DNA of 35,835 nt from Bacteroidales bacterium (GTDB taxonomy: Bacteria; Bacteroidota; Bacteroidia; Bacteroidales; P3). The notes beneath the pieces are model-generated. The model was not told where the DNA came from. It was given only the letters and a program-made list of their open reading frames with translations, and ran no database searches. Positions 14,236 through 32,327 of the stretch are shown piece after piece (positions within the stretch are counted from its first letter, which is position 1; the number at the start of each line of letters is the position of its first letter). Both the position numbers and the translations under genes were made by a program. The DNA is taken from assembly GCA_017960605.1 (NCBI GenBank), contig JAGCYV010000022.1, positions 1 through 35,835 of the forward strand, in the 5' to 3' direction.

Positions 14236-14359
14236 TCACCTCCGTCTCACCTCCGTTGCACCTCCGTCTCACCTCCGTTGCACCTCCGTCTCACCTCCGT
14301 CTCACCTCCGTTGAAAGACGGAGGGGTAACGGAGAGGCAACGGAGAGGGAATGGAGGGG
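14236..14359. repeat. 11-bp tandem array with inverted partial copies
   Basis: Seven head-to-tail 11-bp units of the form (T/G)CACCTCCGT(C/T) fill 14236-14312. After a GAAAG turn, about four degenerate units in the opposite orientation (ACGGAGGGGTA, ACGGAGAGGCA, ACGGAGAGGGA, ATGGAGGGGCT) run to 14359. CCTCCGT and ACGGAGG pair around the turn, so a long imperfect hairpin can form. It abuts the last base of the BadF-type kinase gene. On the minus-strand transcript the left arm reads as seven GGAGGTG motifs. Confidence 0.85.
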
Positions 14360-15220
14360 CTATTGTGGCATTGACGTACCAAGATGGTAGCGTCGGAGAC
14401 CTTCGATGGGGTCGGCCATGACGGTGCCGACGGTGAGGGTGTCGTCGGCGAAATAGGCACGCAGGATGTAATCGATGGCTTTGGCGAATCCTCCTACAAA
14501 GTTGATTTCTCCTTCGTTATACCCACTCTGCTCGCGCAGGGCTTCAAGAGGCCCGTGGTACCATTCGTAGAGAGCTTCCGCAAGGACACCGGCACAGTAT
14601 TCGTCGTTGGCATGGCTGACGGCGAAGGGAGCCAGCGAGGCAAGGAAGCGGTTGGGGTTGGACTGGTGATAGATGATGTCGATCAACTGATCGTCGCTCT
14701 GATGATAAGCGTCATAGAACAAAGTTCTTACGCCGTCTGGCATGCGGTGTGTCAGGTAGTCGTTGAGCAGGATGCGGCCCACATGGTTGGCCGAGCCGTG
14801 GTCACCGAGGATGAAGCCCGTGCTGGTGGGCTGGCATTCGATGGCAGTGCCGTTGTAGTAGCAGGCGTTGCTGCCGGTGCCGAGGATGGCCACGATGCTT
14901 GCCCGGTCGCCACTGGCCGCATGGCAGGCACCCAGCATGTCGGTCTCAACATGGATGTCACCCGTGCGGAAGGCCGCCGACAGGAGACGCTCCACCCGCT
15001 CCCGTTGCGAGGCGTTGCCGCAGCCGGCACCGTAGAAGTAGGTGGTCAGGGAGTCGGTGGTCTGCAGTTGGGGAAAATGTTGTCGTACAGTGGCACAGGC
15101 ATCGAGGAACTGCTCGTCGGTGGTGAAATGGGGGTTCAGACCCTCGGTAACAACCATGTTACCAGTTTCTACCTCCATCCAGGCAGTCTTGGTGCTCCCG
15201 CTGTCGGCAATCAATATCAT
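14360..15220 (-). CDS. BadF/BadG/BcrA/BcrD-type ATPase, probable N-acetylglucosamine kinase-like
   Basis: A 286-residue protein of the ASKHA sugar-kinase fold. The phosphate-1 loop is at the N-terminus ([20 protein letters not shown]); the second is [14 protein letters not shown] (about 115-128), followed by [20 protein letters not shown], typical of the GlcNAc-kinase-like BadF group in Bacteroidota. A C-terminal [14 protein letters not shown] matches the adenosine motif. It probably phosphorylates an amino sugar, perhaps from cell-wall recycling; the substrate is inference. I chose the ATG at 15220 because it starts the ASKHA fold and overlaps the pyrD stop as ATGA (15217-15220). Last gene of the 14360-21768 run. 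Confidence 0.85.
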
Positions 15221-24707: not shown

Positions 24708-24783
24708 GGCCGTTTTTTGCTCCTCGATTGCCAATGCTTTGTCCAAATCCTTGTAATTGGATGATATTAAGTGTTGTGCATGT

Positions 24784-24834
24784 GATGACCTAGTAGTGAC
24801 CTAGTGATGACCTAGTAGTGACCTAGTGATGACC
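24784..24834. repeat. 11-bp tandem repeat upstream of the Y-family polymerase
   Basis: Alternating 11-bp units GATGACCTAGT and AGTGACCTAGT occur twice each (24784-24827), followed by a partial GATGACC. A small AT-rich dyad ATATA-AAAAG-TATAT follows at 24835-24850. It sits in the roughly 300-base gap between the divergent cdd and polymerase genes, about 120 bases before the polymerase start. No other gene is seen in this gap; a weak TATCTTCT at 24939-24946 could be a poor -7 box. Confidence 0.85.
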
Positions 24835-26688: not shown

Positions 26689-27669
26689 ATGGGAAACAAT
26701 TTTCAATTTTCAACTTTCAACTTTCATTTCTCAATTGGCCTCTCCCCCATGGACGACATCACCGACTTGCCCTTCCGCCAGTTGTGCAAGGAATTCGGTG
26801 CCGACCTGCTCATCACGGAGTTCATCGCCAGCGAGGCACTCAACCGCGATGCCGAGAAGAGTCTCCGCAAGATGCGGTTCACTGAGGAACAGCGACCCAT
26901 TGGCATACAGATATTTGGGGCCAACGAGGACGAACTGCTGCGATGTCTCGATGTGGTGGAGCAGGCTCAGCCCGATTTCATCGACATCAACTGGGGCTGT
27001 CCGGTGCGCAAGGTGGCGGGCAAAGGAGCCGGTTCGGGCATCCTGCAGGATATACCTAAGATGCTTGAAATCACCGCCTCGCTGGTGAAGCGAGCCCATC
27101 TGCCGGTGACGGTGAAGACCCGGCTGGGCTATAATGCTGACAGCATGATGATAACCGATTTCTGCGAGGCCTTGCAAGACACCGGCATTGCCGCCCTCAG
27201 CATCCATGGACGCACTAAGACCCAGATGTATAGCGGCACCGCCGACTGGACGATGATCGGCGAGGTGAAGAACAATCCCCGCATGCACATCCCCATCTTC
27301 GGCAACGGCGACATCACTACCGCGGCGCAAGCCATTGAGAACAAGAACCGTTACGGCGTCGATGGCATCCTCATCGGGCGTGCTGCCATTGGCAACCCTT
27401 GGATTTTCGAGCAGTGCCACCGAGCCTTCGATGGATTGCCTGAAAGGGAAATCACTGTGGCAGAGCGAGTCGAGGTCTGCCGTCGTCACCTGTTGGCCGC
27501 CGCTGACTTCAAAGGGGAGCGCACCGCAGTCTTTGAGATGCGCAAACACTATGGCGCTTATTTCAAGGGACTTTACAACTTCAAACCTTTCCGCCTCGCC
27601 CTTGTCAGCACCCCCTCGATCGAAGAGACCCTCGCTGTCCTCGACCGCATTGCCGAGCAGTATAGCTGA
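26689..27669 (+). CDS. tRNA-dihydrouridine synthase, DusB-like
   Basis: An FMN enzyme reducing uridines in the tRNA D-loop. 326 residues. The TIM-barrel start is SPMDDITDLPFRQLCKEFGA (from residue 19, equivalent to APMAGVTDxPFR), followed by QIFGANEDELLRC, DINWGCPVRKVAGKGAGSGI with the catalytic Cys, VTVKTRLGY, LSIHGRTKTQMYSG, PIFGNGDI and DGILIGRAAIGNPWIF. I chose the ATG at 26689 because GGAGAGGAG precedes it and it lies just after the previous stop. The first 16 residues are odd: residues 3-16 come from a heptamer tract (26695-26736) where the family has its first beta strand (usually like IxLxNPxxLAPM). A start at M21 would lose part of the FMN site. Confidence 0.9.
   Translation: MGNNFQFSTFNFHFSIGLSPMDDITDLPFRQLCKEFGADLLITEFIASEALNRDAEKSLRKMRFTEEQRPIGIQIFGANEDELLRCLDVVEQAQPDFIDINWGCPVRKVAGKGAGSGILQDIPKMLEITASLVKRAHLPVTVKTRLGYNADSMMITDFCEALQDTGIAALSIHGRTKTQMYSGTADWTMIGEVKNNPRMHIPIFGNGDITTAAQAIENKNRYGVDGILIGRAAIGNPWIFEQCHRAFDGLPEREITVAERVEVCRRHLLAAADFKGERTAVFEMRKHYGAYFKGLYNFKPFRLALVSTPSIEETLAVLDRIAEQYS
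26695..26736 (+). repeat. Six-unit heptamer tract inside the dihydrouridine synthase gene
   Basis: Units AACAATT, TTCAATT, TTCAACT, TTCAACT, TTCATTT and CTCAATT lie in direct order; the core is TTCAA(T/C)T. The 42 bases are 14 codons, giving residues 3-16. The same core, on the minus strand, makes the tract in mutY at 31455-31482. Gain or loss of one unit would shift the frame relative to the start codon. Confidence 0.85.
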
Positions 27670-28195: not shown

Positions 28196-29476
28196 ATGAA
28201 GGTATTCAAGTTTGGAGGAGCTTCGGTCAATAGCGCCGATGCCGTGCGCAACATGGCACGGATAGTGCAAAACCATTTGGAATCAGAAACATTGGTGGTA
28301 GTGGTCTCCGCTATGGGCAAGACCACCAATCTGTTGGAGAATCTGGTGCCGGGTACCGCTGCGAATGAGGACAAGGCCGCTTTGCGCCGACAGCTGGAGG
28401 AATACCATCTAAGTATCGCCAAGTCGTTGATTCCAAACGAGGAGGGTATTGTCGATAAGGTGAGAGGCTTGCTGAGCCGGCTTGATGGGACCATCGCCTC
28501 CCTCACGCCCTCGGAGGAACAATACAATTTCAACTATGACCAGGTGGTGTCCTTCGGCGAGTTGATCTCCACCACCATCATCGCACACTACCTCAACCAT
28601 CTTGGAATCAATACTCTGTGGCAGGATGCCCGCCAACTTATCCGTACCGACGACCACTACCGCGAAGGGCGCGTGAAGTGGGTGGAAACGCAACAGGCAA
28701 TTCAAAATTCAGAATTCATAATTCATAATTCTTATAGTGTCGTCATCACCCAAGGGTTTATCGGGGGCACCAGTTCTTCGTTTACCACCACGCTGGGACG
28801 TGAGGGTTCCGACTACTCGGCAAGTATCCTTGCTTACTGTCTGGGTGCCAAGAGCGTGACCATTTGGAAGGATGTGCCGGGATTCCTCAACGCCGACCCC
28901 AAGTTTTTCTCGGATACCGTAAAGATATCCCAAATACCATACAACGAGGCTATTGAGTTGGCCTATTACGGTGCCTCGGTCATTCATCCCAAGACGGTGA
29001 AGCCCATCCAGAACAAAGGCATTCCGTTATATATCAAGTCGTTTATCACTCCCGAAAACGAAGGTTCGTCGATAGGCGAATACAAGACCATTGTGCCTGA
29101 GACTCCGCTCTATATCTTTGCGAACAACCAGATACTGCTCTCTATCCTGCCTCGCGACTATTCTTTCATCGCGGAGGATAACCTGCAAGTTATCTTCGGG
29201 ATACTTAACGACCTTGGAATCAAGGTGAACCTGATGCAGAACTCCGCCTTGAGTTTCTCTATCTGCATTAACAACAACCCCCAGTTGGTGAGACCTCTTA
29301 TTGACAGGTTAAAGAGCATGTTCCGTGTGCGTTACAATGAGAATCTACAGCTGATTACCATTCGTTATTACACGCAGGAGGTCATCGACCGCATTGTGGC
29401 TGGACGGCCCATCCTGTTGGAGCAGCGAAGCCGTTCGACGGAGCAACTGGTGGTGCCGGCAACAAGCATGATCTGA
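28196..29476 (+). CDS. Aspartate kinase (monofunctional)
   Basis: Phosphorylates aspartate, first step to lysine, threonine and methionine. 426 residues. The kinase domain has KFGGASV (5-11), VVVVSAMGKTTNLLE, FNYDQVVSFGELIST, TQGFIGGTSSSFTTTLGREGSDYSAS (about 185-210) and GVYxxDP-type VPGFLNADPK; the C-terminal ACT regulatory region (about 305-426) is short. It lacks the homoserine dehydrogenase domain, so it is not ThrA. Residues 169-179 (IQNSEFIIHNS) are encoded by a five-unit heptamer tract (28699-28733), in a variable linker before the conserved VVITQGF. In the present sequence the frame is intact. It overlaps the recombinase gene by one base (TGATG). Confidence 0.93.
   Translation: MKVFKFGGASVNSADAVRNMARIVQNHLESETLVVVVSAMGKTTNLLENLVPGTAANEDKAALRRQLEEYHLSIAKSLIPNEEGIVDKVRGLLSRLDGTIASLTPSEEQYNFNYDQVVSFGELISTTIIAHYLNHLGINTLWQDARQLIRTDDHYREGRVKWVETQQAIQNSEFIIHNSYSVVITQGFIGGTSSSFTTTLGREGSDYSASILAYCLGAKSVTIWKDVPGFLNADPKFFSDTVKISQIPYNEAIELAYYGASVIHPKTVKPIQNKGIPLYIKSFITPENEGSSIGEYKTIVPETPLYIFANNQILLSILPRDYSFIAEDNLQVIFGILNDLGIKVNLMQNSALSFSICINNNPQLVRPLIDRLKSMFRVRYNENLQLITIRYYTQEVIDRIVAGRPILLEQRSRSTEQLVVPATSMI
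28699..28733 (+). repeat. Five-unit heptamer tract inside aspartokinase
   Basis: AATTCAA, AATTCAG, AATTCAT, AATTCAT and AATTCTT, 35 bases, in frame. A gain of one AATTCAT unit would create a TAA within the tract, so repeat-number change would switch the gene off; three-unit changes would keep frame. Confidence 0.85.
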
Positions 29477-31287: not shown

Positions 31288-31461
31288 TCACACTTCCTGC
31301 AAATACTTATCAATCAGTCGGGATACAGGTAGTTTTTTTATCTCTCCGGCGGTTGCGAGCCTTGTGTTTTCGGGTAAAACGACGGGCTTGTCGGGCAAAT
31401 CTGCCGGTAGGAAACGGGCGTGGATGGTGCGGTGGGTTAGCTGGTGGAGGAAGGAAGTTGA
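31288..31461 (-). pseudogene. mutY: Out-of-frame C-terminal part of MutY
   Basis: This minus-strand frame continues the MutY homology that the main frame loses: after NFQFSTSFLHQLTHRTIHAR it reads through FLPADLPDKPVVLPENTRLA and ends GEIKKLPVSRLIDKYLQEV. The HxLTHRxxxARF motif and the terminal LPVxRLIxKYL are the end of the MutT-like domain that recognises 8-oxoguanine. No start codon or promoter serves this part alone. It is joined to the main frame only if the heptamer tract at 31455-31482 changes length. Confidence 0.85.
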
Positions 31462-32327
31462 AAATTGAAAATTGTAAGTTGGAATCGTTCTTTGATGAAG
31501 CGTGTGGCTTCGGCCGTGAGTTCGCTGTCGGTCAGCTCGTTGGGGGTCTCTAATAGAGGAAACTCCCACAGGCCGCGCCAGATGTCCTTGCCGGTGCGCT
31601 GCTGCATGATGCGACGGCCCTTCCAGCGGAGGTCCAGATAGTAGAACCAGCGGTCTTTAGGTTTGGTCTTCAGTGCTTTGACGGGGAACGCGGCTACTCT
31701 GTGCGTCCGAAAAGCCATGCACTCGTCGGCGAAGGGGCAGGCCTCGCAGTCGGGATGCGGGGTGCACTGCAGGGCGCCGAAGTCCATCAGGGCGGCGTTG
31801 AAACGGTCGGGCCGATCGCGGTCTATCAATTTCATTAACAGAGATTCAAACTCCGAGTAGGCGCTGTCGGTGCCGATGGGGGTAGCGATGCCCCGCAGGC
31901 GGCTGATGAAGCGATAGACATTGCCGTCGATGACAGGGTGGGGGAGCCGGTAGGCGAACGAGGCGATGGCTGCTGCCGTATAGCGTCCCACCCCCTTGAG
32001 TTTCAACAGGCTGTCGTAGGTCGAAGGGAACACCCCGTCGCACTCATTCAATATATATTGTGCGGCAGCGTGCAGGTTGCGTGCACGGGAATAGTAGCCG
32101 AGCCCCTGCCACAGGCGCAGCACCTGCTCCTCGCTGGCATGGGCCAGGTCGGCCACCGTCGGGAAGGCGTCGATGAACCGCAGGTAGTAGTCGCGCCCCT
32201 GTTCGATGCGTGTTTGCTGCAGGATAATCTCCGAAAGCCAGATGCGATAGGGGTCGTCGATACCCCTCCAGGGGAGCGTCCGTCCATGCTCGTCAAACCA
32301 TGATTCCAAGGTGCTCAAAAATGCCAT
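31437..32327 (-). CDS. mutY: Adenine DNA glycosylase MutY, frame-interrupted near its C-terminus
   Basis: Removes adenine mispaired with 8-oxoguanine, preventing G:C to T:A changes. As read, 296 residues. The catalytic domain is intact: E33 (SEIILQQT), the helix-hairpin-helix LKGVGRYTAAAI (about 109-120), D134 (VIDGNVYRF), and four cluster cysteines C188, C194, C197, C203. The spacing C-x5-C-x2-C-x5-C is one shorter in the first gap than E. coli (x6). The MutT-like domain starts (KDRWFYYLDLRWKG, IWRGLWEFPLLE) but the frame runs through a heptamer tract to SSTS and stops. The rest of the domain lies in the frame at 31288-31461. Five units (+7) or two (-14) would rejoin it, giving 348 or 341 residues, the usual length (about 350). 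Truncated enzymes of this kind keep some adenine removal but should recognise 8-oxoguanine poorly (inference). Confidence 0.9.
   Translation of the reverse strand: MAFLSTLESWFDEHGRTLPWRGIDDPYRIWLSEIILQQTRIEQGRDYYLRFIDAFPTVADLAHASEEQVLRLWQGLGYYSRARNLHAAAQYILNECDGVFPSTYDSLLKLKGVGRYTAAAIASFAYRLPHPVIDGNVYRFISRLRGIATPIGTDSAYSEFESLLMKLIDRDRPDRFNAALMDFGALQCTPHPDCEACPFADECMAFRTHRVAAFPVKALKTKPKDRWFYYLDLRWKGRRIMQQRTGKDIWRGLWEFPLLETPNELTDSELTAEATRFIKERFQLTIFNFQLPSSTS
31455..31482 (-). repeat. Four-unit heptamer tract at the mutY frame break
   Basis: On the minus strand CCAACTT, ACAATTT, TCAATTT and TCAACTT follow without gaps (28 bases). The core TCAA(T/C)TT is the same as in the tract at 26695-26736. 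The main mutY frame and the frame of its C-terminal part differ by one frame step, corrected by one more unit or two fewer. Confidence 0.88.

Follow-up and report, generated by a model that had tools for sequence, protein, structure and literature searches.

A mutY frame break at a heptamer tract in a Bacteroidales genome, and in-frame heptamer arrays in its genus

Switching of mutY by repeat slippage is already in print and hence is not new: in Helicobacter pylori, slippage in a homonucleotide tract switches the gene (Huang, Kang and Blaser 2006, cited here from the accessible part of a review, PMC8875331). A 6-bp tandem repeat acts as a switch in mutL of Salmonella and Escherichia coli, and the repeat survey of that work took in mutL and mutS, with mutY unmentioned in the portion of the paper that was accessible (PMC2955026). 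For a unit of 7 nt, the accessible part of a study of neuO in the E. coli K1 phage CUS-3 describes a coding heptanucleotide repeat that 42 of 64 genomes (65.6%) carry out of frame (PMC13001214). Heptanucleotide repeats have also been described, again in sources available in part, as TAACTGA repeats in Beggiatoaceae, cyanobacteria and five Bacteroidetes (PMC4679880), and as GGGAATC-type repeats in Xanthomonas and GGGGA(T/C)T repeats in Nostoc (PMC4692102). In the literature searched, no description of translated heptamer arrays in Bacteroidetes or Bacteroidales was found, which is not proof of their absence from print.

The break in mutY and its predicted product

The window, that is, the whole stretch of 35,835 nt analysed here, is contig C66 of a 1.91-Mb Bacteroidales draft genome in 78 contigs, 78% complete. 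Its mutY is divided between two frames at an imperfect heptamer tract, and the features concerned are the following.

31437..32327, minus strand: truncated mutY, 296 aa, with the HhH-GPD catalytic domain, the Fe-S cysteines, the linker and the first part of the NUDIX-like C-terminal domain
31455..31482, minus strand: imperfect heptamer tract of four units, within which the frame is lost, in a segment 7 nt shorter than that of the relatives
31288..31446, minus strand: cut-off MutY end, HQLTHRTIHARF...LIDKYLQEV and then a stop, in the other frame, with an H-x-L-T-H aligned with the FSH loop

Read directly, the minus strand at 31482-31455 is CCAACTT-ACAATTT-TCAATTT-TCAACTT, an imperfect tract of four heptamers inside which the mutY frame (31437-32327, 296 aa) is lost; a TAA stop follows at 31439-31437, five sense codons past the tract. 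The lost end of the protein, HQLTHRTIHARF...VSRLIDKYL, is open over 52 codons in another frame, down to 31288. The long piece has the characters of a MutY, namely an HhH-GPD catalytic domain (PF00730, 70.1 bits), a score above the cut-off of the mutY model (NCBIfam TIGR01084, 301.4 bits, cut-off 286.5) and the 4Fe-4S cysteines, whose four columns (C188, C194, C197 and C203) are invariant in the MutY alignment. The Pfam NUDIX_4 profile, of 113 positions, is shared between the pieces, with positions 5-41 matched in the long piece (27.6 bits) and 59-112 in the cut-off piece (17.9 bits); both matches lie below the 35-bit gathering score, as expected of two halves of one domain. When the MutY of the closest relative (genome G047, 84% identity) was searched against the window with tblastn, two overlapping matches in two frames were returned. 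A preliminary description of this DNA had reported a frame break at the heptamer tract, and the break and its sequence are borne out by the direct reading, the ORF pieces, NCBIfam, the split NUDIX_4 domain and tblastn. Its frame arithmetic is also correct: the addition of one heptamer, or the removal of two, would rejoin the frames into 348 or 341 residues. A second full MutY in the same genome was rejected, the sole other MutY-like match being weak (27% identity, E 4e-12, residues 51-210) and of the kind expected of endonuclease III.

The H-x-FSH motif of MutY senses 8-oxoguanine (OG), and Thr is frequently found in place of Ser, according to the accessible parts of two papers (PMC11078426; PMC10993402). 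When a profile of 41 MutY sequences was used for alignment, HAFSH of Gs MutY (3g0q) fell opposite the H-x-L-[ST]-H that stands in the cut-off end. A NUDIX-like C-terminal domain with H-x-FSH, or its S/T variant, was not found in the same protein as the catalytic domain; HQLTH stands past the break, in the other frame and aligned with the FSH loop, and the earlier remark that loss of the C-terminal domain weakens 8-oxoguanine recognition agrees with this. E. coli MutY without its C-terminal domain kept its activity in vitro, and mutation frequency rose 500-fold (PMC10993402, in the part available). Because the predicted 296-aa product is without the OG-sensing loop, it would probably be a poor repair enzyme in the cell, deficient in or incapable of the repair of OG:A.

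The mutY tract in related species

The site was compared in one genome per species, in 45 mutY orthologue rows representing 44 genomes (G030 is counted twice, and the window's copy is included). At the same codons, ten other rows (L142, L145, L146, L147, L148, L149, L150, L152, L156 and L160) score at least 24/38 for period 7; the window's copy scores 24/38, and the remaining 34 rows score 19/38 or less. The arrays are of two flavours, TTTCAAT/TTTCAAC (TTTCAGT in L145) and TTTCACC. The conserved anchors on either side are 102 nt apart in 42 of the 45 rows, and one row each has 105 nt and 87 nt, with a single frame throughout; the window's copy, with 95 nt between anchors and two frames, is the only one of its kind. 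The frame is kept in 44 of the 45 rows, the window's alone being 7 nt short. An insertion that lengthened MutY was rejected, since array-bearing and array-free orthologues share the length of this segment. These alignments indicate that heptamer arrays are translated at the same MutY site in a group of species and that the window's copy is one unit short. The proposal of a switch had raised the question of how related genomes stand at this site, and there ten other species have arrays and only the window's copy is out of frame. As in phase-variable loci, a tandem tract lies within a gene and its unit number sets the frame. G047 scores 15/38 at these codons and has no clear array, so the state of the tract in the last common ancestor is uncertain. 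Across the genus, MutY was matched (E 1e-40) in 64 of 120 genomes, and the window's is the only truncated one; two other open frames shorter than 351 aa (310 and 317) match the query from residues 44 and 36, and have thus lost the start, the opposite end.

The break could in principle have arisen in the assembly, the true tract having the relatives' length and the assembler having collapsed one unit. Tandem repeats are prone to such collapse, and this draft genome is in 78 contigs. However, the mutY tract, at about 35 nt, is far below the usual short-read length, and 23 other arrays in the examined stretches lie in open coding-like frames. Of 16 ORFs on the G047 contig that match the window, two-frame matches were obtained for two only, mutY and an opposite-strand ORF over the same ssb-mutY stretch, and for none of the neighbouring real genes (syntenic 27.7-35.8 kb only). 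An artefact of this kind is considered distinctly improbable.

The values of dN/dS relative to G047 (Nei-Gojobori) were 0.135 over the 279 codons before the break and 0.137 over the 52 codons after it, the second value being derived from few changes (7 nonsynonymous and 13 synonymous differences). Such similar values on either side imply that selection acted on the cut-off end during most of the period since the split from G047. This points to a break that is recent, or else to a cut-off end that is still used part of the time, that is, intermittently. Constraint on the second piece would also be in keeping with programmed ribosomal frameshifting, or translation in two pieces, that restores a full MutY. 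The other 63 MutY-bearing genomes, however, have one open frame, and a canonical -1 ribosomal slippery site was rejected, no in-frame -1 slippery heptamer being present in the stretch that starts 30 nt ahead of the tract and ends at the stop. Restoration at the level of translation therefore appears very improbable.

Heptamer arrays in the genome and genus

The mutY tract is one of four arrays found in the window by a period-7 scan, whereas 50 dinucleotide shuffles averaged 0.08 arrays and never had more than 1, on which basis a chance repeat was rejected. Tandem Repeats Finder gave it 2.4 perfect copies and a score of 34, among 27 rows at a low threshold. In the genome as a whole, a pattern roughly two and a half units long, with one mismatch allowed, matched 127 times versus 16 for the reversed control pattern, overlapping matches in one array being counted separately. 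The genome thus has many period-7 arrays above chance, as genomes with dispersed heptanucleotide repeats do, and 76 of 119 genomes in the genus have exact matches to the heptamer pattern. Several motifs were present, whereas repeats of the TAACTGA type favour a single motif that lies mostly immediately before start codons. The arrays, with a peak length of 33-34 nt, numbered 86 in 168 kb of the window's genome, a density biased upward insofar as these 168 kb comprise the window and stretches chosen around heptamer-pattern matches.

Judged by codon score, 23 of the 86 arrays have an open coding-like frame running through both flanks. Choice of the coding frame from ORFs only may pick wrong frames, and codon scores were added; the codon-score filter missed mutY itself, and other broken genes may have escaped it. 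Another 34 rows were examined, and in 18 of them the frame upstream comes to a stop no more than 15 nt from the array start, so that arrays often begin at a stop codon. Ten array-bearing proteins were scanned, and in six the array falls inside the matched family (aspartokinase, AlaRS, RNase R, YgiQ, MurF and an NqrA-like protein). It is at or beyond the edge of the family match in DusB, MtaB and a beta-ketoacyl synthase, and well outside the matched part in the tenth, a RapZ match. Two of these arrays are in the window.

26696..26729, plus strand: heptamer array CAATTTT/CAACTTT, translated at the N-terminus of dusB, right after the start region and ahead of the matched domain
28698..28735, plus strand: AT-rich heptamer array of the AATTCAT type, translated in frame inside aspartokinase

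In relatives, the aspartokinase loop (L193-L222) differs in sequence, in its heptamer-like units or in length. Closely spaced pairs of arrays in opposite orientation were seen inside open frames elsewhere in the window's genome (C4:51227-51308, C53:6672-6745 and C21:2641-2749), and their peptides read hairpin-like (KLKIENS ... NFQLS). Heptamer-coded peptides (SIIFNFQF...) were also seen in the apparent signal peptides of several proteins (L001, L004 and L182). Arrays with an 11-base unit occur in the window at 14236-14360 and 24782-24834 (TCACCTCCGTC, ACGGAGAGGCA and GTGATGACCTA).

A loop of AlaRS (L179, L223-L252; 30 rows) carries different heptamer motifs in different species, in frame, and several of the rows are without an array there. 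The alaS array in L247 has 21 extra nt, equivalent to three units, and is still in frame. Among rows with visible arrays (10 of 30 for mutY and 15 of 30 for alaS, the window's tract being omitted for its different length), units were more alike within than between species, with similarities of 0.860 versus 0.741 at mutY and 0.790 versus 0.617 at alaS. A likeness within species as large as this was reached in 0 of 5000 permutations at mutY and 0 of 5000 at alaS, a statistic weakened by the choice of rows and by shared descent, which the permutations ignore. Likeness of units within a species is what turnover of units by slippage or replacement would predict.

Our preferred reading, to which we give a probability of roughly 0.6, is that recent loss of one unit (7 nt) from a translated heptamer array in a tolerant segment of MutY truncated the gene. 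On this reading, short heptanucleotide arrays, often of 30-40 nt, are scattered over this genome and, judged by pattern, over many species of the genus; some lie within genes and form part of the protein in frame, and a group of related species has come to carry them in a tolerant stretch of the C-terminal domain of MutY. Their units would turn over by slippage or replacement, with selection holding the total length in frame. The window's genome would recently have lost one unit, most likely via slipped-strand mispairing or unequal exchange, and the shifted frame would then run to the stop five codons past the tract, giving a product of 296 aa with the glycosylase domain kept and the OG-sensing loop gone. 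This account takes the array to be ancestral, slippage to be the cause, the break to be recent and function to be lost. Against it stand the single assembled mutY copy, from a 78%-complete draft, which could reflect an assembly error or a minority strain, and the position of the gap: because the units resemble both each other and the C-rich flank, the missing 7 nt may belong either to the tract or to that flank, and the gap could adjoin the array rather than lie within it.

Gene loss, switching and comparison with known systems

Two outcomes, reversion and a first step towards gene loss, are sub-cases of the loss of one unit, and the odds assigned to the separate readings do not sum to one. 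MutY was without a match (E 1e-40) in 56 of the 120 genomes of the genus, and in 26 of the 62 that are at least 90% complete and no more than 5% contaminated. None of 119 genomes gave an Fpg/MutM match, in a search whose control was positive for 8 of 14 reference genomes. The absence of MutY from so many good genomes, together with the absence of Fpg, makes plain gene loss a strong rival. On an AlaRS tree of 30 genomes, presence and absence of MutY changed at least 7 times, four changes being forced by well supported branches; 4 of the 11 mutY-less genomes on this tree are less than 90% complete. The MutY label was weakly clustered on the tree (7 changes versus a shuffled mean of 9.2, with 36 to 39 of 500 shuffles as low). 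G008 and G023, both without MutY, were placed next to the window's trio by a weakly supported join (83/69). The frameshift may thus be the first inactivating hit in a dispensable mutY, at the start of permanent loss in a lineage that discards the gene repeatedly, a reading to which we give slightly less than even odds. It is countered by the lack of relaxed constraint on the cut-off end (dN/dS 0.137) and by the lack of any other decaying copy, as the 1.5 kb upstream of ssb contained no mutY remnant at any of 14 informative loci from genomes without MutY. That search covered 20 genomes, 19 without MutY and G047 as positive control, and relied on a mutY-ssb adjacency checked in the window and G047 only; ssb was located in 15 of the 19, of which one was dropped (32 nt upstream only), and three chance matches were obtained (E 0.24 to 0.72).

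True phase variation would entail frequent and reversible change in unit number, with cells alternating between full and truncated MutY and between low and high rates of G:C to T:A change. Consistent with it are the constraint still seen on the cut-off end, the shift of frame that any one-unit change here must cause, the whole-unit change at another array (three units, L247), the homogenised look of the units, and the existence of slippage switches in mutY (H. pylori), mutL (Salmonella) and neuO (a coding heptanucleotide). However, mutY is broken in 1 of 64 MutY-bearing genomes compared with 42 of 64 out of frame for neuO, and four imperfect units are few. That the nameable intragenic arrays are mostly in housekeeping genes also argues that they did not evolve as switches. 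The switch proposed in the preliminary description is therefore supported in part: the 7-nt deficit, the arrays in ten species, the constrained end and the loss of the OG motif speak for it, and the one broken copy in 64, the short imperfect tract and the repeated loss of mutY against it. We regard phase variation as unlikely. A wider proposal, which we hold to be unlikelier still, is that self-renewing translated heptanucleotide arrays settle in tolerant loops of core proteins, changing motif and unit number from one species to another, and that in dispensable repair genes such as mutY their turnover would act as a reversible switch, with subpopulations cycling through a G:C to T:A mutator state.

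If the mutY tract does switch, a rumen-associated lineage would have a built-in mutator specific in its mutation spectrum. Even without switching, the genus shows 7-base arrays living in core proteins and remodelled without breaking them, and the dispensable mutY reveals the consequence of losing one array unit. That Fpg went undetected in this genus (0 of 119 genomes) while MutY is lost repeatedly also bears on how anaerobes handle oxidised guanine.

Rickettsia palindromic elements, which occur in protein-coding genes, share with the arrays described here the tolerance of in-frame sequence inside proteins; they differ as longer palindromes that are not heptamer arrays. The TAACTGA, GGGAATC-type and GGGGA(T/C)T repeats are likewise many short 7-nt arrays dispersed over a genome, but in the accessible parts of their sources they are mostly intergenic and of one motif, whereas the window's genome has several motifs, some in frame in housekeeping genes. 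The neuO repeat is a 7-nt unit in coding sequence whose number modulo three sets the frame, as in mutY here, but its tract is longer (3 to 53 units), its variation has been shown and it is not in a repair gene (PMC13001214, in the part available). The H. pylori case, as far as the review available in part describes it, concerns the same gene and a repeat frameshift, with loss of function raising the mutation rate; there the repeat is a homonucleotide run, whereas the window's is a heptamer array in the C-terminal domain, in Bacteroidales, known from one assembled sequence. The mutL switch differs in a 6-bp unit that keeps the frame and in belonging to mismatch repair rather than base excision, but shares with the mutY tract its few tandem units in a mutation-avoidance gene, where a change of one unit inactivates (PMC2955026, in the part available).
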